IMG/VR virus record: IMGVR_UViG_3300003691_000041 | Location: 1-26,475 of that record | From: a virus | Reading direction: 5' to 3' (one strand) | DNA: 26,475 bases | Shown: positions 2,847-26,475 of the stretch, in pieces | Numbering within the stretch: the stretch's first letter is position 1 | How the letters are laid out: every line of letters begins with the position of its first letter | Program-made: the position numbers and the translations under genes | Notes under the pieces: model-generated | What the model was told of the DNA's origin: nothing | The model's input: only the letters and a program-made list of their open reading frames with translations | The model's database searches: none

Positions 2847-3233
2847 ATGGATTTTATTCTAAGTGTTTTCGGTGCAAATGTGGTAATTTGCCTTGGTGTT
2901 TTGGCATATCTTATTGGAATTGTATTTACAATGAAAAATGTTTATGATGCTGAATATGACTCAATAAAGGCAGTTGGATTTAAAACAGAGGATAGTTGGG
3001 ATGTAGGGGTTAGGACTGGAGATAGTTGGGGTGCAAAAGCTGTTTATGACAGTGACAAAGTTGGATTTCTTATTTTTAGTTTCTTTTTTCCTGTTGTCTG
3101 GATTTGGATAATTTGTTGTTTCTTCTGGAGTGTTTTGATGAAGACTTTAGCACTTACTTTTACAAAAGGTTTTGTTGCACTTGATAAAGTTATTCCACGA
3201 CTTACTTTTAAAAGAGAGGATAATGATGGGTAA
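2847..3233 (+). CDS. Small membrane protein, tandem paralogue 2
   Basis: 128 residues, starting one base after the previous stop with AAGGAGG seven bases upstream. The N-terminus MDFILSVFGANVVI repeats that of the upstream gene. There are two hydrophobic segments, about residues 3-29 and 72-98. The loop between them lacks the cysteines of its paralogue and instead repeats an acidic DSWD/DSWG pattern (TEDSWDVGVRTGDSWG). The C-terminal KREDNDG overlaps the start of the DNA ligase gene. Function unknown; it is cotranscribed with its paralogue and probably with the ligase. Confidence 0.75.
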   Translation: MDFILSVFGANVVICLGVLAYLIGIVFTMKNVYDAEYDSIKAVGFKTEDSWDVGVRTGDSWGAKAVYDSDKVGFLIFSFFFPVVWIWIICCFFWSVLMKTLALTFTKGFVALDKVIPRLTFKREDNDG

Positions 3234-4533
3234 AAAAAGAACAATAATGGATCTTGACTTTAATAATCCTGAAGATTTAGAAATTGCACTTGAAATGGAA
3301 AGAGGCTGTGAAAGCTTCGAATGTGGAGCAATGCATTTAAAAGGAGGAAAAATGACTAAAACAGAATTACCAATGCTATTTGCATATGATTCAAAAGGAA
3401 GAGTAAAGACATGGCATGTTGAAGCAATTGATGAAGATATAATTGTTACAACAGGTCTTGAAGATGGCAAGAAAAAAGTTACGCCGTCTGTTGCCAAAGG
3501 TAAAAACATTGGCAAGGCAAATGAAACAACACCAGCAGAACAGGCAGTGATTGAAGCAAAGGCAAAGTGGGTAAAGCAACAGGAGCGTAAAGGGTATGTT
3601 GAAGACCTATCTGCGTACAAGTTTCAGTACTGGTGTACACTGGCAAAGGATTGGCTAAAGCAAAAAAACATGAGAGCAAAACTTTCAAAAACAAGGAATT
3701 TTGTGCAATGTAAATTAGATGGGGTACGTATGACCATTGAAAACACTAATAGCACTATGTCAAGAAGCAGAATTGAATATAAGGTAAAGTCCCAATCTTT
3801 TTATGATCAGATTTCAATTTTTAAAGAAACGTTGGAAAGCATTGTTGGAGCAGATGTTGTTATAGATTCTGAAGGGTACAAACATGGCTATATCCTTCAG
3901 CAAATACAAAAAAGTGTAAAAAAAGGAGAGGGAAAATTAAGCCCTGACGAGCTTGAGTTGCACATATTTGATTTCTATTGCCATGACAAAAAAGATCTTT
4001 TGTTTTCTGAAAGAGAAGCCATGCTTATTGAAACATTTAAAAGGTTAATAAAGATCCCCGGTGCAATCAATAAGATAAAACATGTCACATCAAAAGAAGT
4101 TGAAGATTTTGATGAATTTGAAAAATTAGTTGACGAGGCAGGAGAATTGGGGTATGAAGGAATTATGATTAGAAACGACAGTCCATACGATGTTGGAAAT
4201 GGGTCAAAGAGATCTTCAACACTGTATAAATTTAAAAGATTTTTAGACGATGAATTTAAGATTATTGGGGTTAAAGAAACAAAAGAAATCACACTTAAGT
4301 CTGGAGAAGTTGTAAGACAGGGGCAGTTTATTTGTGAAAAAAAGCATAATGATGAAATTGTAACTTTTAAAGTAGTTCCTGTTGGCGAATCAAAAGGCAT
4401 GAGACTTGATCTTCTTTTAAATAGTTCTAATTATATTGGCAAGCTTCTTAAGACGAAATTTCAAGATTTTACAGCAGATGGAAAACCTTCATTTGCAAAA
4501 GGACTGGCAATCAGGCTACCAGAGGATATGTAA
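3226..4533 (+). CDS. ATP-dependent DNA ligase
   Basis: 435 residues from the second of two adjacent ATGs (3223, 3226). A segment resembling a WGR-type domain (ELPMLFAYDSKGRVKTW...KNIGKANETT, about 47-102) comes first. The nucleotidyltransferase core follows: KLDGVR with the AMP-accepting lysine at 163, DSEGY at 214-218, ELHIFDFY near 244-251, EGIMIR at 311-316 and YKFKRF at 334-339. An OB-like C-terminal part follows. It seals nicks after RNase H action in phage replication. A much stronger site (AAGGAGG, four bases before ATG 3352) suggests a second or true start 42 codons later, giving 393 residues. Confidence 0.9.
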   Translation: MGKKRTIMDLDFNNPEDLEIALEMERGCESFECGAMHLKGGKMTKTELPMLFAYDSKGRVKTWHVEAIDEDIIVTTGLEDGKKKVTPSVAKGKNIGKANETTPAEQAVIEAKAKWVKQQERKGYVEDLSAYKFQYWCTLAKDWLKQKNMRAKLSKTRNFVQCKLDGVRMTIENTNSTMSRSRIEYKVKSQSFYDQISIFKETLESIVGADVVIDSEGYKHGYILQQIQKSVKKGEGKLSPDELELHIFDFYCHDKKDLLFSEREAMLIETFKRLIKIPGAINKIKHVTSKEVEDFDEFEKLVDEAGELGYEGIMIRNDSPYDVGNGSKRSSTLYKFKRFLDDEFKIIGVKETKEITLKSGEVVRQGQFICEKKHNDEIVTFKVVPVGESKGMRLDLLLNSSNYIGKLLKTKFQDFTADGKPSFAKGLAIRLPEDM

Positions 4534-7697: not shown

Positions 7698-8201
7698 ATG
7701 GACGGAGATTTATTAAAAAATATTTTAAAATATGATAAAAATACTGGACTGTTTACATCATTAAAAACAAATAAAGAACTTGGATGGACGCATAGTGAAG
7801 GATATATAGCTATTGAAATAATTGGAAAGAAATACTATGCACATAGACTTGCTTGGATGTATGAATATGGGTATTTTCCAGAAAATGGAATAGACCATAT
7901 TAATAAAAATAGATCTGACAATAGAATTAAAAACTTAAGAGAGGCTGGAAAAAGATGTAATGGACAAAATTGCAAAATTAGCAAAAATAATAAATCTGGA
8001 GTTACTGGCGTATATTTTGACAAAAGAAATAACAAATGGAAGGCTCAGATAAAGATAGATAAGAAGATGATATATCTTGGTCAGTTTGATGAACTTTATG
8101 ATGCAGTATTAGCAAGATGGAATGAAGAGCAAGACAATCCAGAATGGAAATGTTCTATTAGTTCATCTGCAAATAATTATTTAAAGGATAACAAATGTTA
8201 A
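7698..8201 (+). CDS. HNH homing endonuclease with AP2 DNA-binding domain (copy 1)
   Basis: 167 residues with TAGGAG six bases before the ATG. The HNH core is AHRLAWMYEYG, GIDHINKNRSDNRIKNLR (His 67). It is followed by an AP2-type beta domain at about 99-140 (SGVTGVYFDKRNNKWKAQI). The C-terminal W.CS..SSA.NYLK tail also closes the second HNH-AP2 gene at 22536. The last seven bases overlap the primase start, so this free-standing homing gene has settled directly in front of a replication gene and supplies part of its ribosome site. Confidence 0.85.
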   Translation: MDGDLLKNILKYDKNTGLFTSLKTNKELGWTHSEGYIAIEIIGKKYYAHRLAWMYEYGYFPENGIDHINKNRSDNRIKNLREAGKRCNGQNCKISKNNKSGVTGVYFDKRNNKWKAQIKIDKKMIYLGQFDELYDAVLARWNEEQDNPEWKCSISSSANNYLKDNKC

Positions 8202-9671: not shown

Positions 9672-10706
9672 ATGAGAAAAATGAATGATACAGAAGTTAT
9701 GGAAAAAATAGAAGAACTTGCTAAAGAGAATGATTGTGAAATTCTTTTAATTACAAAAGTTGGTTCACAATTGTTTGGGACTCATCACGAAAACTCTGAT
9801 GTTGATTATGGTGGTGTTTTTTTACCATCAAAAAAATCATGCGTTTTAGGAACTGCTCTTAAAAAAATCAAGTTTAGTACAGGAGAAGACGGAAAGAAAA
9901 ACTCAAAAGATGATATTGATATTTCTCTTTGGTCGCTCCAGAGATGGTTGAATCTAATTAACAAAGGCGATACAAATGCAATTGATGTTCTTTATTCAAT
10001 CACAAACAAGGAATGTACTCTGGTTTACGACACAAGACTTTCTCTGTTATTTTCGCTAAGAGAGAAGCTGTTCAATAAAAAAGACTTGAAAGGATATATT
10101 GGATATGTTCGTTCACAATCTTTAAAGTATGGAATGAAGGGAACAAAGTTTAATATCATTAAAAATGCATATGAATGGATTATGACTCTTGATCAATCTC
10201 TTGACAATGATCATTTATGGAGTGTAAACTATCAGGATCTTTTAGACAAGCATGGAGATGATCAGTATCTGTATAAAGAGGATGTAGAAGAAAAACCATC
10301 TATTGTCTTATGTGGAAAAGTTCATAATCTTGAAACAAGAATTGGCGAAGTAAAAAAACGTTTTGACAAAGAATTTAGAAAAAAATATGGAAAAAGAGCA
10401 CAGGAGGCAGCAAAAAACAATGGAGTGGATTATAAAGCGATTTCTCATTCTGTAAGAGCTATTCATCAAATGAAGCAGATTCTTTTAGATGGAGATATTA
10501 AATTTCCATTGGAGACTGCTGACTTTATTCGCGAAGTTAAACTTGGAGAACATTCTTTTGAAAGTGTTGAGGCATTACTGGATGATGGGCTTAATGAAAT
10601 TTATAACATCATTGATAATAATCCTCCAAAAGACACCAAAGATTTGGACTTTATTGATTATTTTGTTTTATTAATGTATAAAGAAGCAAAGGGGGCTTAT
10701 CTATGA
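9672..10706 (+). CDS. Pol-beta-superfamily nucleotidyltransferase
   Basis: 344 residues with TAGGAGG five bases before the ATG. The active-site signature is at the N-terminus: VGSQLFGTHHENSDVDYGG with G31-S32 and D43/D45, then a third carboxylate in DDIDISLW (D81/D83). A long helical region follows (SLKYGMKGTKF, KAISHSVRAIHQM). This layout matches the predicted nucleotidyltransferases of T4-like and other large phages. The reaction is unknown; addition of nucleotides or AMP to RNA or protein is possible. It is a different subfamily from the gene at 6. It ends in an ATGA junction with the next gene. Confidence 0.82.
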   Translation: MRKMNDTEVMEKIEELAKENDCEILLITKVGSQLFGTHHENSDVDYGGVFLPSKKSCVLGTALKKIKFSTGEDGKKNSKDDIDISLWSLQRWLNLINKGDTNAIDVLYSITNKECTLVYDTRLSLLFSLREKLFNKKDLKGYIGYVRSQSLKYGMKGTKFNIIKNAYEWIMTLDQSLDNDHLWSVNYQDLLDKHGDDQYLYKEDVEEKPSIVLCGKVHNLETRIGEVKKRFDKEFRKKYGKRAQEAAKNNGVDYKAISHSVRAIHQMKQILLDGDIKFPLETADFIREVKLGEHSFESVEALLDDGLNEIYNIIDNNPPKDTKDLDFIDYFVLLMYKEAKGAYL

Positions 10707-15646: not shown

Positions 15647-16606
15647 ATGGAGATAATATTGAAAAAAGTAATATGTAAAACCTGTGGAAAAGAATTAAAT
15701 CTTTGTGAAAAGAATTTTGGCAAAGAAAAGAAAAATAGGTCTGGCTTTAAAGGCAGTTGTAAAAAGTGTATTGCAAAATATAAAAAAGAGCATTCCGAGA
15801 AGAATAAGGAAAATATAGCAAAAAAGCAAAAAGAGCACTATGAAAACAACAGAAAAGAGATAATAGAAAACAGTAAAAAATATTATGAAAGTAATAAAGA
15901 AAAAACAGTTGAATATAAAAAAGAGCACTATGAGAAAAATAAGATAGAAATAGCAAAAAAACATAAAGAAAATTATGAAAAAAACAAAGAAGAACTTTTA
16001 AAAAAATCTAAAGAACATAGTAAAGAAAAAGCAAAGCACTTAACCTACAAAGATCAATTATTTGCAGATGAGGCAAGAGAGGCAGATAATAATATATTAG
16101 AAGTAAAGTGCAAGCACTGTAAAGAATGGTTTAAGCCAGCAAATAGTCAAGTAAAAACCAGAATAAATGCAATTAATGGAAAAGCGAGGGGAGAAAATCA
16201 CTTTTATTGCAGTGAGGAGTGTAAGGATAATTGTGAGGTTTATGGAAAAAAGCCATCACAGCTTGAAAGGCTTGATGAAATAAACGCAGGAATATACAAA
16301 ATTCACAAGCATGAGGGTTTTTACACACAAGATCAACTAAATATTTGGAGCAAACAAGTAAGAGACAATGCAAACAATGAATGCGAAAGATGTGGGAGTA
16401 AAGAAAATCTTCAAGCCCATCATGTTCTGCCTAAATCTGAACACCCAGAACAAGCATTGGAGCCAGACAATGGAGTGTGTTTATGTATTGAGTGCCATAA
16501 AGAAGCACACAGCCAAGATGGGTGCAGAACAGGACAATTAAGAAAATGCGAAATATTAGAAAACAGCTTGACAGACAAAAAGAATCATGATAAAGTGCAT
16601 CATTAA
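15647..16606 (+). CDS. HNH endonuclease with N-terminal zinc ribbon and long repeat linker
   Basis: 319 residues from ATG 15647; a TTG at 15659 with GGAG upstream is an alternative start. Domains in order: zinc ribbon with C10-x2-C13 and C38-x2-C41, five 15-residue Lys/Glu repeats (47-121), a second zinc site (CKHCKEWF, then CSEECKD), and the HNH core CERCG...LQAHHVLPKS...NGVCLCIECHKEAH. The HNH itself is held by two C-x2-C pairs. It follows the helicase by two bases and ends at the promoter of the next operon. The gene at 19157 is a paralogue with a shorter linker. Confidence 0.83.
   Translation: MEIILKKVICKTCGKELNLCEKNFGKEKKNRSGFKGSCKKCIAKYKKEHSEKNKENIAKKQKEHYENNRKEIIENSKKYYESNKEKTVEYKKEHYEKNKIEIAKKHKENYEKNKEELLKKSKEHSKEKAKHLTYKDQLFADEAREADNNILEVKCKHCKEWFKPANSQVKTRINAINGKARGENHFYCSEECKDNCEVYGKKPSQLERLDEINAGIYKIHKHEGFYTQDQLNIWSKQVRDNANNECERCGSKENLQAHHVLPKSEHPEQALEPDNGVCLCIECHKEAHSQDGCRTGQLRKCEILENSLTDKKNHDKVHH
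15785..16009 (+). repeat. 45-bp coding repeat, five units
   Basis: Five tandem units encode a 15-residue K-E-H-Y-E-x-N-K-x-E-I-x-x-K-x motif in the HNH linker. Units are degenerate at base level, but AAAGAGCA-type starts recur every 45 bases. The paralogue at 19157 has only about two units (19286-19375). Confidence 0.75.
16568..16596 (+). promoter_or_regulatory. Promoter inside the end of the HNH gene
   Basis: TTGACA at 16568-16573, 17-base spacer ending TGA, TAAAGT at 16591-16596. The -10 is weaker than the others. It lies 24 bases before ATG 16620. Confidence 0.58.
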
Positions 16607-17982: not shown

Positions 17983-19128
17983 ATGCAAAAAATGGTAACA
18001 GTAGAAAAAATAAAAGAAATAAAGATACATGAAAATGCAGACCTACTTGAACTTGCATACGTGAAGGGGTGGCAAGTATGTGTACAGAAAGGACTTTACA
18101 AGGAAGGGGATATTATTCTCTACTTTGCAGTTGACTCTATTCTTCCACAGCCAATTGAAGAAAAGATATTCGGAGAAGGTGCAAAAGTAACTCTTAAAAA
18201 ATCAAGAGTAAGAACAATCAAGCTAAGAGGGGCATACTCACAGGGACTTATTGCTCCAATTGATTTGTTTTCTTACAGATCTTTTCATAACTTTCGTGAA
18301 GGAATGGACTTTACAAGAGAATTTGGTGTTGAAAAGTTTGAGCCAAAGATCAATAAAGGAGATGTTCTTTATACTGGTGATGGTAAAAAAGTAAAAAGAA
18401 CGAAGAATCCAAACTTTTTCAAAGTAAGAAAGCCACAGAACATTAAAAACTATCCAGAAGCATTTATGGGAAAAGAGGTTGTTATTACTGAGAAGATTCA
18501 CGGCAGTTCTTGGATTGGTGCGTGGGTAAAACGTCCCGGCAAAACATTTTTTGAAAAACTTACAAGACTTATTCTTGGCGAATATGAGTTTTGTTATCGC
18601 TCAAAAAATGTTCAGTTACAAAGAAAAGACACAATTCTAAATGCGATGCTTAAAAAATTTGGTGTAATTAAAAATACAATGTATTACAATACTAATATTT
18701 ATGTTGCTATGTGTAAAAAATATAACATCGCAAACAAGCTTCCAATGGGATATGAAGTGACAGGTGAGATTTATGGTTCAGGCATTCAGAAAGGATATAA
18801 TTATGATTGTAAAGATGGCGAAAGAAAACTTGTCATTTATGGTGTAAGAAAAGATGGCAAAAACCTACCTCATAAAGATGCGGTATGTCTTGCCACGAAA
18901 GATTGTGGTCTTGACTATGTTCCTGTTCTTTTTGAAGGAATTCTTACTCCAGAAGTACTTGAGAAATGTACTAATGGAAAATCAGCACTTGATCCAAAAA
19001 CAAAAGTTCGTGAAGGATGTGTTGTAGAGCTTAAAGAAGCAAATGGAGAAAATGTATGGCTTGGTGCGCCTGTTTTGAAAAGTATTTCTGAAAAGTATTT
19101 ATTAAAAGATAATACAGACTATCATTAA
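17983..19128 (+). CDS. RNA ligase, DRB0094 (Rnl5-like) family
   Basis: 381 residues with AAAGGAGG upstream of ATG 17983. An N-terminal OB-like domain comes first (VEKIKEIKIHENADLLELA, GDIILYFAVDS), as in the Deinococcus DRB0094 ligase. The nucleotidyltransferase core follows: EKIHGSS with the AMP-accepting K171, YRSKN near 205-209, GEIYGSGIQKGY at 261-272, REGCVVEL at 343-350 and LKSISEKYL at 365-373. It joins RNA or RNA/DNA nicks with ATP. With the kinase-like gene at 22123 it could repair tRNAs cut by host anticodon nucleases. An HNH gene follows closely. Confidence 0.88.
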   Translation: MQKMVTVEKIKEIKIHENADLLELAYVKGWQVCVQKGLYKEGDIILYFAVDSILPQPIEEKIFGEGAKVTLKKSRVRTIKLRGAYSQGLIAPIDLFSYRSFHNFREGMDFTREFGVEKFEPKINKGDVLYTGDGKKVKRTKNPNFFKVRKPQNIKNYPEAFMGKEVVITEKIHGSSWIGAWVKRPGKTFFEKLTRLILGEYEFCYRSKNVQLQRKDTILNAMLKKFGVIKNTMYYNTNIYVAMCKKYNIANKLPMGYEVTGEIYGSGIQKGYNYDCKDGERKLVIYGVRKDGKNLPHKDAVCLATKDCGLDYVPVLFEGILTPEVLEKCTNGKSALDPKTKVREGCVVELKEANGENVWLGAPVLKSISEKYLLKDNTDYH

Positions 19129-19156: not shown

Positions 19157-19915
19157 ATGAATGAAATAGTAATTTGCAAGGAATGCAAAGAGGAGTTGAA
19201 ATTATGTGTGGAGAATTTTCATAAGGCCAACAATACTAAAACTTGCTTTAGAGGAAAATGTAAAAAATGTGATGCAAAATATCAAAGAGAATATAATAAA
19301 AAAAATAAAGATAAAATAGCAAAAAGAGATAAGGAGTATAGCAAAAAAAGAGTAGAGTTACGTAAGGAATATAAGAAAAAATATTATAAATCATCTGCAA
19401 GGTATTCAACATATAAAAACAAGTTATTCGCAGATGAAGTAAGAGAGATAAGCAATGATATATTAGAAGTAAAATGTAAACATTGTAATGAATGGTTTAT
19501 TCCTACAAACTTACAGGCAACAAATAGAAAACAAGCAATAAATGGGAATCAAAAAGGAGAGAATCATTTTTATTGCAGTCAAGAATGTAAGGATAAGTGT
19601 GAAATTTTTAGAATAATGCCAGTAACTCTTGAAAAACAGGATGAATTAAATGCTGGTATTTATACAGTTCATAAGCACGAAGGTTTTTACACAGACCCAC
19701 AATTAAGAGTTTGGAGTCAACAAGTAAGAGATAATGCTAATAACCAGTGTGAAATTTGTGGGCAAAAAGGTGATTTACAGGCACATCACATCAACCCTAA
19801 GGCTACCAATCCAGAACAAGCATTAGATCCTCAGAATGGTGTATGTCTATGTGAGAAGTGCCATAAAGAAGCGCATAGCAAAATAAAACAATTAAAAAAA
19901 TGCAACATAGTATAA
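19157..19915 (+). CDS. HNH endonuclease with N-terminal zinc ribbon (short-linker paralogue)
   Basis: 252 residues from ATG 19157; GGAG lies about 13 bases upstream, so the ribosome site is weak. It has the same order as the gene at 15647: zinc ribbon (CKECKEEL, CKKCDAKY), about two 15-residue linker repeats (44-73), CKHCNEWF and CSQECKD, then CEICG...LQAHHINPKA...NGVCLCEKCHKEAH. The two proteins are clearly paralogous from the linker to the end. It lies directly downstream of the RNA ligase, as the other copy lies downstream of the helicase. It is the last gene before the repeat-rich gap. Confidence 0.83.
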   Translation: MNEIVICKECKEELKLCVENFHKANNTKTCFRGKCKKCDAKYQREYNKKNKDKIAKRDKEYSKKRVELRKEYKKKYYKSSARYSTYKNKLFADEVREISNDILEVKCKHCNEWFIPTNLQATNRKQAINGNQKGENHFYCSQECKDKCEIFRIMPVTLEKQDELNAGIYTVHKHEGFYTDPQLRVWSQQVRDNANNQCEICGQKGDLQAHHINPKATNPEQALDPQNGVCLCEKCHKEAHSKIKQLKKCNIV

Positions 19916-21475: not shown

Positions 21476-21562
21476 ATGTGCGTTTACTGTGGAGGATTGA
21501 TAATTGTTGGTGGAATATGTATGTCTTGTAGAAACTATGTAGGAGATATTTATGTCAAATAA
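21476..21562 (+). CDS. 28-residue Cys4 microprotein
   Basis: ATG 21476 follows a strong AGGAGGG site by five bases. The peptide carries C2-x2-C5 and C15-x2-C18, a complete four-cysteine set on a very short chain with GG turns after the first pair. This is what a minimal zinc ribbon would need. The last 11 bases overlap the next gene. It could also act mainly to couple translation. Confidence 0.45.
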   Translation: MCVYCGGLIIVGGICMSCRNYVGDIYVK

Positions 21563-21803
21563 AATACAAGATAAAAGACCACTTGTTCTCCATAACTGGT
21601 TTGAGTTTAGCGACTGCGTAATGGGGCAAATTTACAATGATCGTAGAAGAACAAATCCTAATGATCGTAGAAGAACAAATCCTAATGATGGATCAATGCA
21701 AATGACATCTTATGTTAAATTACTTGACAGAGAAAGAGGAATTTTAATAACGAAAAATACAACATACCATCTTGGTAAGGAAGTTACACAGGAGATAGAA
21801 TAA
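21552..21803 (+). CDS. Phage hypothetical protein, tandem paralogue A with internal duplication
   Basis: 83 residues, start inside the microprotein gene with AGGAG seven bases before. KRPLVLHNW, IYND, NPNDGS and YHLGK are shared in order with the next gene, so the two are paralogues. An in-frame 24-base tandem duplication gives DRRRTNPN twice, where the paralogue has one ERRKNPN. Function unknown; the paired conserved motifs suggest a small beta domain. Confidence 0.68.
   Translation: MSNKIQDKRPLVLHNWFEFSDCVMGQIYNDRRRTNPNDRRRTNPNDGSMQMTSYVKLLDRERGILITKNTTYHLGKEVTQEIE
21636..21683 (+). repeat. 24-bp perfect tandem duplication inside a gene
   Basis: AATGATCGTAGAAGAACAAATCCT occurs at 21636-21659 and again without change at 21660-21683, followed by the first six bases again (shown here as 24 bases of DNA, key end motifs AATGATCG and AAATCCT). 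Identity suggests a recent slip or, less likely, an assembly fault. Confidence 0.88.
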
Positions 21804-22135
21804 TGACTGAGAAAACTATAAATTGGCCTGAGTGGAAAAGGAAAGGTCTTACAAAAAGCTTCAGGACTATTCTTAATAAGCGACCCTTGGTTATTCATAA
21901 TTGGATTGTTTGGAATAACTGTGTATGGGGATCAATTTACAATGATGAGAGACGAAAGAATCCAAATGATGGTTCAGTTCAAAGAACTTCTTTTATCAAG
22001 AGCATTGACTTTGAAAATGGAATCCTAATTACACAAAATACAGTCTATCATCTTGGAAAACCAATTGATGAAAACTTTGAAGACTATTACAATAGAAAAC
22101 AGAAAGAATATAAGGAGAGTCAATGGAAGAATTAG
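21803..22135 (+). CDS. Phage hypothetical protein, tandem paralogue B
   Basis: 110 residues, TAATG-coupled with CAGGAGA 10 bases upstream. It adds a basic N-terminal stretch (WPEWKRKGLTKSF) before the shared core KRPLVIHNW...IYNDERRKNPNDGS...YHLGK, and a charged tail (YYNRKQKEYKESQ). It has a single copy of the motif that is duplicated in paralogue A. The last 13 bases overlap the kinase gene. Function unknown. Confidence 0.68.
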   Translation: MTEKTINWPEWKRKGLTKSFRTILNKRPLVIHNWIVWNNCVWGSIYNDERRKNPNDGSVQRTSFIKSIDFENGILITQNTVYHLGKPIDENFEDYYNRKQKEYKESQWKN

Positions 22136-22542
22136 AAAAAGTATTACTTGTAACTGTTGGTCTTCCTCGATCTGGAAAATCAACTTGGGCTAAAGATCAA
22201 AGATTGCCAATCGTAAGCAGAGATGCAATAAGGATTGCACTTCATGGAGAAGCATATCTTCCAAAAGCAGAGAGTATGATTACTGTTATTGAAGATCTTA
22301 TGATTGAGTCTCTATTTGAAGCAGGACATGATGAAGTAATTGTTGACGCAACAAATACAACAGAGGAAAGAAGAGAAAGATGGATTAGTGACAAATGGGA
22401 AACTGAATTTAGAAACTTTAGAACTTCAATTGATGTTTGCATATATAGAGCTTTAGAAGGTGATCGACATGATTTAATTGCTGTTATTGAAAGAATGGCG
22501 GAACAGATAACTTATCCAGAAGATGGATTTGACGCATGGTAG
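22123..22542 (+). CDS. Polynucleotide-kinase-like P-loop protein
   Basis: 139 residues, start within the previous gene with AAGGAGAG four bases before. Walker A GLPRSGKST is at 13-21, SRD at 32-34, and DATNTTEERRERW at 75-87 forms the lid/Walker B-like part typical of the 5'-kinase domain of T4 Pnk. There is no phosphatase domain, so it is about half the length of T4 Pnk. It would phosphorylate 5' ends of RNA or DNA, making substrates for the RNA ligase at 17983. Small-molecule kinase activity is an alternative. Confidence 0.75.
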   Translation: MEELEKVLLVTVGLPRSGKSTWAKDQRLPIVSRDAIRIALHGEAYLPKAESMITVIEDLMIESLFEAGHDEVIVDATNTTEERRERWISDKWETEFRNFRTSIDVCIYRALEGDRHDLIAVIERMAEQITYPEDGFDAW

Positions 22543-23174
22543 AAAAATTAACACAGGAGTACCTGAAGGAATGCTTGCACTATGATCCAGACACTGGCAT
22601 ATTTACTTGGCTTGTTAGACCAAGATCGCATTTTAAGGATGGAATAAGGAATAGGGCAGAACGCATTTGCAACATATGTAATACAATATATGCAAGATGT
22701 ATCGCCGGATCTAAGGATAAAAAAGGGTATATTGTAATAAGAATTGACAACAAGGGATATTTCGCACATCGTCTTTCTTGGCTCTATGTTTATGGATATT
22801 GTCCAGAGAATGAAATTGATCATATTGGAGATAAAGATGAATTTGGAAATAAAAATCCAGATAATAAATCAGACAATAGAATTGTTAACTTGAGAGAAGT
22901 TGGAGATATTTGTCAAATGCAAAATACAGTGATTAGGAAAGATAACACATCTGGAGTAAAAGGTGTTTCTTGGAACAAATCTGGAAGAAAATGGCGCTCA
23001 TACATTGCAATTCATAAAAAACAAAAGCACCTTGGTTATTTTATAAACTTCAATGATGCTGTAAAAACAAGGTGGGCAGAGGAAAGAGATAATTCAAAAT
23101 GGGATTGCTCTACTGACTCATCAGCATACAATTATTTAAAAGAAAACAATTTATTAGAGGAGGAAAACATATGA
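22536..23174 (+). CDS. HNH homing endonuclease with AP2 DNA-binding domain (copy 2)
   Basis: 212 residues overlapping the kinase gene by seven bases. An extra Cys set near the N-terminus (CNICN, ARC, 45-55) precedes the HNH core AHRLSWLYVYG...IDHI...KSDNRIVNLR (His 96). An AP2-type domain follows (SGVKGVSWNKSGRKWRSYI), then the W.CS..SSA.NYLK tail shared with the gene at 7698. Its ATGA end overlaps the polymerase start by four bases, and its own last codons supply the GAGGAGG ribosome site of the polymerase. A free-standing homing gene lodged in front of dnaE. Confidence 0.85.
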   Translation: MVEKLTQEYLKECLHYDPDTGIFTWLVRPRSHFKDGIRNRAERICNICNTIYARCIAGSKDKKGYIVIRIDNKGYFAHRLSWLYVYGYCPENEIDHIGDKDEFGNKNPDNKSDNRIVNLREVGDICQMQNTVIRKDNTSGVKGVSWNKSGRKWRSYIAIHKKQKHLGYFINFNDAVKTRWAEERDNSKWDCSTDSSAYNYLKENNLLEEENI

Positions 23175-26100
23175 TACATCTTCATTGTCATTCTGGCATG
23201 AGTTACCTTGATGGATACTCTACATCAAAGGAAATAATAGATCGTGCTATTGAGATAGGCGCAAAACATGTATGCATTAGCGACCATGGAAATATCAATG
23301 TATTTCCAGAAGCTTACAAATATGCTAATAAAAAAGGAATTAATTATCTTCCTGCTATTGAATTTTATGTTGTGGATGACGAAGATCCAAAATTAAATAA
23401 AAGAGGTGAAAAAAGATACCATATGATAGCCATTGCTAAAAATTGGGAAGGTCTTCAGTGTATATTCAGAAAAGCAACATTGGCTAATTCTCAAAAATTT
23501 AATAAATTTCCTCGTCTTTTAATGAGTCAAACATATGATTTTCATGATTGCTTTATTTCTTCTGCATGTTCTGTAGGTTTTATTAAAAAAGATAATTATA
23601 GAGAATTAGCAGAAAAATATATAAAAGCATACAGGAATGATTTTTATATGGAAATTATTCCTGTATCTTATAACATTACAATTAAAGATTACACTAAGCC
23701 AGATTGGGATCAAGAGCAACTAATTACTAATGAGATTAAAAGACTTTCTGCTGACATGGGAGAAAATGTAATTGTTAATAAAGACAGTATAACAAATGAA
23801 AAAACAATAAAAACAATTCAAATTGATGGTGGCAGACTTGTAAATGAACGAGTTATTGAAATACATAAAGAACTTGGTGTGCAAATTTGTCTTACACAAG
23901 ATTCGCATTTTACACGCAAAGAAGATGCAGAAGCTTTTGAAGTTCTTTTATGTATTCAAACAAGGCAGAAGATAAGCACTCCAAGAGAAAAACGCTTCTT
24001 CTTTGGAGACGACCAAATCTATATGAAAGACATGAAAGAAATGATAGAATCAACAAGATTACTTGGATACGTTCCTGATGAGATTATAAGAACATCAATT
24101 CTTACAACTACTATTATTGCAGAGCAATGTAATGTAATTATGCCTGAGTTTAGCTTTAATTTCCCAACTCCATATCCTGAATATGAAGACGAAGTAATTT
24201 TTAAGCAAAAAATAAAAGAAGGATGGAAGCGATTAAATATATCAGATAAGGAAAATGTTAGTGTGTATCTTGACAGACTTAAAATTGAGATTGATACAAT
24301 TATAAGTCTTGATCTTGTACGTTATTTTCTCATCGTAGAAGATGTTATGAGATTCTGTAGAGAAGTTGGTATTGGTACTGGTTGTGGGCGTGGCTCGGCA
24401 TCAGGTTCGCTTATATGTTTATTATTGGGCATCACTAAAAGAATAGATCCAATTGAGCATGGTCTATATTTTGAAAGATTTCTAAATAAAGCCCGTGTTT
24501 CTATGGCAGACATAGATGGGGATTTTGAGAGTAAACGTAGAGGAGAAGTTCTTGAATATTTAAAAGAAAAGTATGGAATAGATAAAGTTGCACAAATTGC
24601 AACTTATGGTTATCTTTCTCCCAAGTCAGCTTTTCGTGATGTTTGTTCAGTTTACTCTATTCCTTCTGTTGATATGAATAAGTTATCAAAGCTTATTGAG
24701 GCAGGAGTTATAAAAGAGAATGGATCAATTGTAGAGACATATAGTCAAGAAGAGAGTTTTGATCACATTCAAGAACTTATTGAGTTTAAGGAAAGATTCC
24801 CTTTTATTGTCGATATGGCATTAAAATTAAATGGTAGAGTAAGAAATGCTGGAGTTAACGCTGCTGGAGTAATCACTTCTTCAATTCCTTTGACCGATTT
24901 GGGCGTGATTGAAAATAGATCAAGTGGTTTTTGCATCGGGTGGGATAAGATTGTGTCAGAAGATACGTTTAAGTTACTAAAGCTTGACATTCTTGGGCTT
25001 AAAACAATTGATGTGATTGAGGGTAGCCTCAAGCTTATTAATGAGCTTAGAGAACTCAGTATTACGGATGACGACCTACCTTTTGATAACCAAATGGCAA
25101 TTGATGAATTTGCAAAAGGAAAAACTGTAACAATATTCCAATTTGAGGGTAGTAATGCACAACGACTACTTAAAGAAAGTGGAGTTGGGACTCTTGACAA
25201 TATATCTGCTATATCGGCAGTTAATAGACCCGGAGCACTCAATGCAAAAGATGAAGATGGAGTAAATATTACAACACATTACGTTAATAGAGTTAATGGG
25301 TCTGAAGAAGTAAAACATTTTATACCTCAATTTGAATATATACTAAAAGATACTAAATCCTTAATGATTTTTCAAGAGGATATGATTCGTATTTGTGTTT
25401 CTATAGCTGGATTTTCTGGAGTAGAGGCAGACACATTTAGAAAGATCGTTGGTAAAAAATTATCAAAGGATGAATTTGAAAAGCATAGAGAAAAATTTGT
25501 TACTGGATGTATTTCATATAGCAATATAACAATATTAGAAGGAAATAAAATATTTGATGATATTATAGAGATGGCTGCGTACTCATTTAACAAGGCGCAT
25601 GCTGTTGCCTATGGAATGAACTCTATGATGTCAATGTACCTTAAAGTTAATTTTTCTTTAGAATATTTCTGTTCTTGCTTGACTTACGCTGGAAAAGATG
25701 ATATGATTCCGGGGTATATTAAAGATGCAAAGAGATATGGAGTTGTTGTTGAATATCCAGACATTAACAATAGTGAACCAACAAAGTTCTCAATTGCAAA
25801 TGGAAAGATTATTGCACCACTGAATGCTATTAAGGGAGTTGGAGATGTTGCTGCAAATTTAATTAAGCAGGTTCGTGATGAGGTTGAGTTTTTTACAGGG
25901 TTTGAGCATTTTGAAGCTGCTCTTAAGGAAAGAAAACTTGCAGGAAAGGTAAATAAAAGAGTAAAAGATTGTCTTGTGAAAGCAAATACTTTTAAGAAGC
26001 TTGGATATTTTATAGATGATGCAGAAGAAGAGGAAGAGAACCTTCGGGCGTTATTATCACTTTTTTCTCCTATTCCTTCTTTTAAGCCAAGAGGTGGAAA

Positions 26101-26475
26101 GACTCATGAGAAGCAGCATTTACATGATCTATTTGTAGAAGTTGGAAATTGTGGAGCAGAGAAGTGGTCAAAACAGTATGATACAGTATCACCAATTTCT
26201 TACGCCAAACCTAATAACATGATTATTTACAATTTATCAACATGGGATAGCTCAATGCTACAAAAGGACAATACAAAGTGGTTAGTACCTAACTTAATGG
26301 AGTTGACAGACACACCAAGAGCCGACTGGTATGTAACTACTGGAGTAAAATGTTCATTTCATGGAGTTGTTAAGGATAAGATTCCAAAAGAATGTCGTGA
26401 CAAATGTAGACTTGATTTCTTGTCAAAAGAAATAAAAATAGTCAGACCACGTATGATTTTAGCAATGGATAGTCA
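23171..26475 (+). CDS. dnaE: DnaE-type DNA polymerase III alpha subunit with C-terminal UDG-like domain, cut by window end
   Basis: At least 1101 residues, open at the window end. A PHP domain begins at once (IHLHCHSGMSYLDG, SDHGN). The polymerase core shows GCGRGSASGS (404-413), ADIDGDF with D447 and D449, LKLDILGL with D606, FQFEG, NRPG, MIFQEDM and FNKAHAVAYG. A helix-hairpin-helix (IKGVGDVAA) follows. From about residue 985, where bacterial DnaE has an OB fold, the chain instead reads like family-4 uracil-DNA glycosylase: C994, WYVTTGVKC (C1061), C1075, C1079 and LSKEIKIVRPRMILAM. The GEAPG catalytic segment of active UDGs is not seen. Main phage replicase; GAGGAGG ribosome site within the HNH gene. 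Confidence 0.92.
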   Translation, partial: MIHLHCHSGMSYLDGYSTSKEIIDRAIEIGAKHVCISDHGNINVFPEAYKYANKKGINYLPAIEFYVVDDEDPKLNKRGEKRYHMIAIAKNWEGLQCIFRKATLANSQKFNKFPRLLMSQTYDFHDCFISSACSVGFIKKDNYRELAEKYIKAYRNDFYMEIIPVSYNITIKDYTKPDWDQEQLITNEIKRLSADMGENVIVNKDSITNEKTIKTIQIDGGRLVNERVIEIHKELGVQICLTQDSHFTRKEDAEAFEVLLCIQTRQKISTPREKRFFFGDDQIYMKDMKEMIESTRLLGYVPDEIIRTSILTTTIIAEQCNVIMPEFSFNFPTPYPEYEDEVIFKQKIKEGWKRLNISDKENVSVYLDRLKIEIDTIISLDLVRYFLIVEDVMRFCREVGIGTGCGRGSASGSLICLLLGITKRIDPIEHGLYFERFLNKARVSMADIDGDFESKRRGEVLEYLKEKYGIDKVAQIATYGYLSPKSAFRDVCSVYSIPSVDMNKLSKLIEAGVIKENGSIVETYSQEESFDHIQELIEFKERFPFIVDMALKLNGRVRNAGVNAAGVITSSIPLTDLGVIENRSSGFCIGWDKIVSEDTFKLLKLDILGLKTIDVIEGSLKLINELRELSITDDDLPFDNQMAIDEFAKGKTVTIFQFEGSNAQRLLKESGVGTLDNISAISAVNRPGALNAKDEDGVNITTHYVNRVNGSEEVKHFIPQFEYILKDTKSLMIFQEDMIRICVSIAGFSGVEADTFRKIVGKKLSKDEFEKHREKFVTGCISYSNITILEGNKIFDDIIEMAAYSFNKAHAVAYGMNSMMSMYLKVNFSLEYFCSCLTYAGKDDMIPGYIKDAKRYGVVVEYPDINNSEPTKFSIANGKIIAPLNAIKGVGDVAANLIKQVRDEVEFFTGFEHFEAALKERKLAGKVNKRVKDCLVKANTFKKLGYFIDDAEEEEENLRALLSLFSPIPSFKPRGGKTHEKQHLHDLFVEVGNCGAEKWSKQYDTVSPISYAKPNNMIIYNLSTWDSSMLQKDNTKWLVPNLMELTDTPRADWYVTTGVKCSFHGVVKDKIPKECRDKCRLDFLSKEIKIVRPRMILAMDS

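Follow-up and report, generated by a model that had tools for sequence, protein, structure and literature searches.

In bacterial C-family DNA polymerases, an OB domain is detected in at least 97% of members (PMC3919608). Timinskas et al. 2013 (PMC3919608) reported a variant, the extra DnaEs (DnaEX) of some Y. pestis and S. enterica strains, in which the OB domain and the C-terminal domain (CTD) are replaced by an archaeal-type uracil-DNA glycosylase (UDG) domain (PF03167). The GenBank record of phage RHEph10 already notes its DnaE as 'uracil-DNA glycosylase-like'. The broad idea of the fusion was thus known, and the first-pass annotation of the DNA analysed here, which knew of no description of this arrangement for DnaE, was mistaken on that point. 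Our literature search for SSU5/pHCM2 or other phage DnaE-UDG proteins returned no paper, and we found no description in the literature of the clade, the cysteine set or the catalytically intact-looking phage fusions presented below. In phrog_4335 (421 aa, listed with 'unknown function'), the profile spans the DnaE fingers/HHH part and, after it, a C-terminal domain of the type studied here. This family is probably a C-terminal DnaE half with a UDG-like domain, presumably from split DnaE genes. A UDG-like domain is also carried by phage family-A polymerases (phiLo, 9qhs; SP-15; Enterococcus phages Porthos and EFLK1). These belong to a different polymerase family, and in phiLo 9qhs the UDG-matching stretch is N-terminal (residues 14-116).

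The window, which is the whole stretch of DNA that we analysed, comprises an entire virus record of 26,475 bp and is a stand-alone contig. A polymerase gene runs off its end, with these core features:

23171..26473, + strand: DnaE-type (C-family) DNA polymerase III alpha subunit, 1101 aa, 3' end open at the contig end
24515..24523, + strand: palm Asp pair D449/D451 (ADIDGDF), invariant in the phage alignment
24986-24988, + strand: third palm Asp, D606, present
25739..26005, + strand: helix-hairpin-helix (HhH) domain, residues 857-945 (PF14579, E=2e-13)

The PHP, DNA_pol3_alpha, finger and HHH_6 domains were all detected by Pfam in the open reading frame, which also matches phrog_405 (E=9e-249) and scores above the TIGR00594 cut-off. 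D449, D451 and D606 are the residues that we take, by analogy with E. coli DnaE, to be catalytic. By its domain set and the three palm Asp residues the protein is assigned to the C-family polymerases, its polymerase active site is predicted to be intact, and the canonical DnaE core described by the first-pass annotation is borne out. The C-terminus of the protein is unreadable because the record ends there and an exact-DNA search found no overlapping viral contig with the 3' end of the gene. Four relatives extend 64-67 residues beyond this point.

The region behind the HhH domain carries the following features:

26051..26473, + strand: UDG-superfamily domain by profile and model matches, residues 961-1101 (~140 aa), minus its last ~64-67 residues
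26150..26152, + strand: C994, at the family-4 Cys1 position; Cys2 of the C-x2-C is absent
26231..26251, + strand: NLSTWDS, residues 1021-1027, at the place of family-4 motif A (GEAPG); catalytic Glu absent
26333..26353, + strand: VTTGVKC strand (VTNVVKC in family-4 UDG); uracil-contacting Asn replaced by Thr
26351..26353, + strand: C1061, at the family-4 Cys3 position
26393..26395, + strand: C1075, a clade-specific extra Cys, 4 residues before Cys4 and near the start of the following helix
26405..26407, + strand: C1079, at the family-4 Cys4 position

Taken alone, the tail of the window protein gives weak matches. Its 161-aa C-terminus matches the Pfam UDG family (PF03167) at E=0.0013 and TIGR00758 at E=0.0014, and phmmer aligns it with the T. 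thermophilus UDG at E=0.7. The PF03167 score of 19.2 bits is below the cut-off of 24.3 because the domain is truncated and divergent; the nearest complete relative, L010, scores 39.4 bits. All 26 aligned homologous phage domains match PF03167 (best E=2e-29). A profile of the phage homologues retrieves family-4 UDG structures from the PDB (4zbx, E=2e-30) and UdgX at ~6e-17; it matches the window at E=6e-32, the window itself being one of its 26 rows. The five best PDB matches to the AlphaFold model of the L010 domain (pLDDT 88, pTM 0.87) are family-4 UDGs, with TM ~0.72 (0.72 for the T. maritima family-4 UDG). For the truncated domain of the window itself (pLDDT 81), the top 36 structure matches are family-4 UDGs or UdgX. 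Judged by sequence profiles and predicted structures, the DnaE tail is a UDG-superfamily domain, as the first-pass annotation had proposed.

That annotation had also held that this domain replaces the usual OB domain, and profile comparison and structure prediction both returned UDGs first. Pfam detected no OB domain (PF01336) in the window even at E≤1, a result that is still compatible with a diverged OB; PF01336 is present in several UDG-less phage DnaEs. Loss of the OB domain is a hallmark of the UDG variant and does not weigh against membership of DnaE. The domain order within the protein (PHP-Pol3-HhH-UDG, OB undetected) is the same as in DnaEX and in the DnaE of Salmonella phage SSU5, and at the sequence level the window protein is a DnaE-UDG variant in the sense of Timinskas et al. 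(2013), with OB/CTD replaced by a PF03167 domain. Two further candidates in the C-terminal region were dropped. In L014 the interval that separates HhH from UDG resembled an OB domain by eye and gave no Pfam OB match, and a degenerate clamp-binding motif just before the UDG domain, LLSLF, does not start with Gln.

Relatives were found only with alignments or longer queries. As single-sequence queries against IMG/VR, neither the C-terminus nor the whole protein returned any, and tblastn against phages found nothing with the C-terminus alone and found relatives when the query included the fingers/HHH part. The same fusion is present in phages SSU5, RHph_Y2_11, nickie and RHEph10, which align across the full tail, and in about 25 further IMG/VR homologues, to which L091, L106, L094, L136 and L168 were later added. 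In a DnaE-core tree of 100 rows with SH-aLRT support, a large lineage of fused DnaEs (23 rows, support 100) includes SSU5 and is separate from the window's clade, which has its own cysteine set. The window groups with L010, L011, L091 and L106 at 91; L012 joins at 89 and is not starred. Two other fused proteins, L013 and L048, are placed near UDG-less DnaEs. Read from this tree, the fused state requires at least two changes of state and occurs in at least two DnaE lineages. We note that several branches are long, including that of the window, which makes the deeper placements unsafe. The fusion is widespread among phages and plasmids; 225 plasmid records match the domain. A scan of 84,980 bacterial and archaeal species genomes found no member of the window's clade. 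The 20 fused records that we checked all lack any UDG-superfamily match other than the DnaE tail, and 4 of 20 UDG-less phages have a standalone UDG-superfamily gene.

In two records (L127:2313-7371 and L111:419-5864) the two parts of a split DnaE flank a standalone family-4-like UDG gene and, next to it, a gene that we read as a DEDD-type 3'-5' exonuclease. In L127 the UDG gene begins before the DnaE N-half gene has ended (4223/4226). This placement between the DnaE halves links UDG with the replicase operon and hints at a route by which fusions could arise. The close relatives of the window also seem to be rich in inteins. An intein-like insert with an HNH-like stretch interrupts DnaE in L077 (5977-10205), where the DnaE parts lie in different, overlapping frames (the open reading frames meet at 8049-8052), either as a natural split intein or through a frameshift. 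Long intein/HNH-like inserts are also present in the DnaEs of L011 (4498-8712, inserted at YSFNK|SHAV) and L106 (2965-7047).

We compared the key positions across 38 aligned domains, of which two were standalone UDGs. In family-4 UDGs these positions are motif A, the Asn of TNxVKC, a Phe, motif B and the Cys residues; motif A supplies the catalytic Glu, the Asn contacts uracil and the Phe stacks. The first-pass annotation had described the GEAPG motif as lost, and NLSTWDS does stand in its place at residues 1021-1027; motif A reads YNLST in the window and NNPVK or NNPTQ in its clade relatives. The uracil-contacting Asn is Thr in the window and Ser in the other four clade members. The stacking Phe is Leu in the window, L010 and L077 and is kept in L091 and L106. 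The HPS of motif B is SPQ in all complete clade members, and the window ends before that position. With the motif-A Glu and the Asn lost, and the His lost in complete relatives, uracil excision by the window's domain is very unlikely as far as its residues indicate. The suggestion that it may sense uracil fared poorly as well: Glu, Asn and the stacking Phe are all lost in the window, and canonical uracil sensing is unlikely by the same comparison.

Across the 38-domain alignment, the phage fusions range from apparently catalytically intact to dead. L014 and L136 have the full set of motif A, Phe, Asn, motif B and the four Cys, and L094 and L048 have nearly all of it. L014, L136 and L094 keep GEAPG, GEGPG or MEAPG, together with the Asn, HP(A/S) and four Cys, and L048 keeps GEAPN, the Asn and HPAS. 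In the large lineage (SSU5, the Rhizobium phages, nickie) motif A is mostly xDxPx and the His mostly Asn; the Asn position is Ala, Ser or Thr, but Gly in SSU5 and Trp in L074.

The segment LSKEIKIVRPRMILAM is present in the window tail exactly as the first-pass annotation quoted it. The annotation's pattern of VKC-x13-C-x3-C with another Cys 67 residues upstream corresponds precisely to C1061, C1075, C1079 and C994. Although the clade members are only ~30-40% identical, these four Cys are kept in all five of them (the window, L010, L077, L091 and L106), compared with 4 of the 18 other Cys of the polymerase (hypergeometric p ~0.01). The annotation had likened the four Cys to those of family 4; the number and three of the positions hold, and the ligand set does not. 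Relative to the family-4 C-x2-C...C...C arrangement, the clade is missing Cys2 and has gained a Cys that lies one helical turn ahead of Cys4. The four conserved Cys would suit a metal or Fe-S site, in line with the Fe-S cluster that the annotation had suggested, and their arrangement fits a rearranged Fe-S or Zn site. A tree neighbour, L011, keeps the UDG fold with none of these Cys, and the large lineage is without the third Cys throughout; the domain as such can therefore do without a cluster. The window's domain shares with family-4 UDGs and UdgX the fold, the sequence profile, the (V)KC strand and the Cys1, Cys3 and Cys4 positions, whereas its clade is without the catalytic Glu, Asn, His and Cys2, has an extra Cys and is fused to a replicase.

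We somewhat favour a reading in which the domain is a non-catalytic structural and DNA-contact module that replaces OB and CTD and holds a metal site. The C-terminal OB (and tau-binding) region of a phage replicative C-family polymerase would have been swapped for a domain derived from a family-4-type UDG, which in the window's clade would no longer be a glycosylase. Placed behind the helix-hairpin-helix as a non-enzymatic module that contacts DNA, it would take over the job of the OB domain in holding the template or the replisome, and it may be braced by a 4Fe-4S or Zn site formed by Cys1, Cys3, Cys4 and the new Cys that replaces Cys2. The fold, the homology, the undetected OB, the losses in the catalytic site and uracil pocket and the Cys conservation are computed results; from the fold only we infer DNA contact, and the metal and its ligands are likewise inferred.

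The domain might instead inspect the template for uracil or a modified pyrimidine without cutting and stall or license the polymerase. Archaeal family-B polymerases respond likewise to template uracil. Such a role would accord with the recurrence of UDG-like domains on family-A phage polymerases, including the solved phiLo 9qhs, described as 'with modified template', and the predicted UDG-bearing polymerase of phage SP-15, a phage in which about half of the thymines are reported to be hypermodified (PMC5977210). All three long clade contigs (L077, L091, L106) also encode dUTPase and ThyX. However, these two enzymes suggest ordinary thymine DNA, PF00303 (the thymidylate synthase/hydroxymethylase type) was not found in these contigs, and the uracil-reading residues (Asn, motif-A Glu and His) are lost in the clade. 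We dropped a link to dUTPase/ThyX or base modification as too weak, dUTPase being present in 6 of 11 long fused records and also in 4 of 20 UDG-less control phages. We regard template inspection as unlikely, while giving it some weight.

We think it improbable that the domain is a protein-protein adaptor, standing in for the tau-binding CTD to dock a partner from the phage or host replisome and having no role on DNA. The domain does occupy the OB and CTD position, and no beta-clamp gene was found above the cut-off in 13 such records (nor in those of L077, L091 and L106), which makes a non-standard replisome tether plausible, but the UDG fold serves above all to bind DNA. We see little chance that the domain is a vestige drifting without function: its catalytic motifs are strongly diverged and the window is a long branch, yet in five divergent clade members the domain is still full-length and in frame and its Cys are invariant, and in the larger lineage too it stays full-length and in frame. 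An active replication-coupled glycosylase that clears uracil ahead of or behind the polymerase is scarcely credible here, since the window's own clade has lost the catalytic residues, even though the machinery is kept in other phage fusions (L014, L136, L094, L048) and L127 has its standalone UDG gene between the halves of DnaE.

The remainder of the window encodes an ATP-dependent DNA ligase (3172-4533), an RlaP-type nucleotidyltransferase (9672-10706), an OB-RNA ligase (PHA02142-like; 17983-19128) and an AAA_33 P-loop kinase (22123-22542), possibly an RNA/DNA repair set. There are homing-endonuclease-like genes at 1406-2407, 7698-8201, 15647-16606, 19157-19915 and 22536-23174. One is GIY-YIG by Pfam and fused to a nucleoside deoxyribosyltransferase-like part, and the rest are HNH-like by eye; one lies directly upstream of dnaE, with overlapping ends. 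Two tandem paralogous small proteins (RPLVxHNW...NPNDGS...) are encoded at 21552-21803 and 21803-22135, the first with an internal duplication of RRRTNPND.

Since its mention in a single sentence in 2013, the fusion seems to have been little studied. The apparently active and the dead fusions are ready pairs for testing uracil surveillance by a replicase, whether performed or repurposed. A bolder reading, which we consider rather unlikely, is that a repair glycosylase has been turned into a non-catalytic, template-reading or redox-active replicase domain with a re-liganded Fe-S or Zn site, as a stage in a series from intact (L014, L136, L094) to dead. If true, the replicase would check template chemistry by fold and not by cutting.
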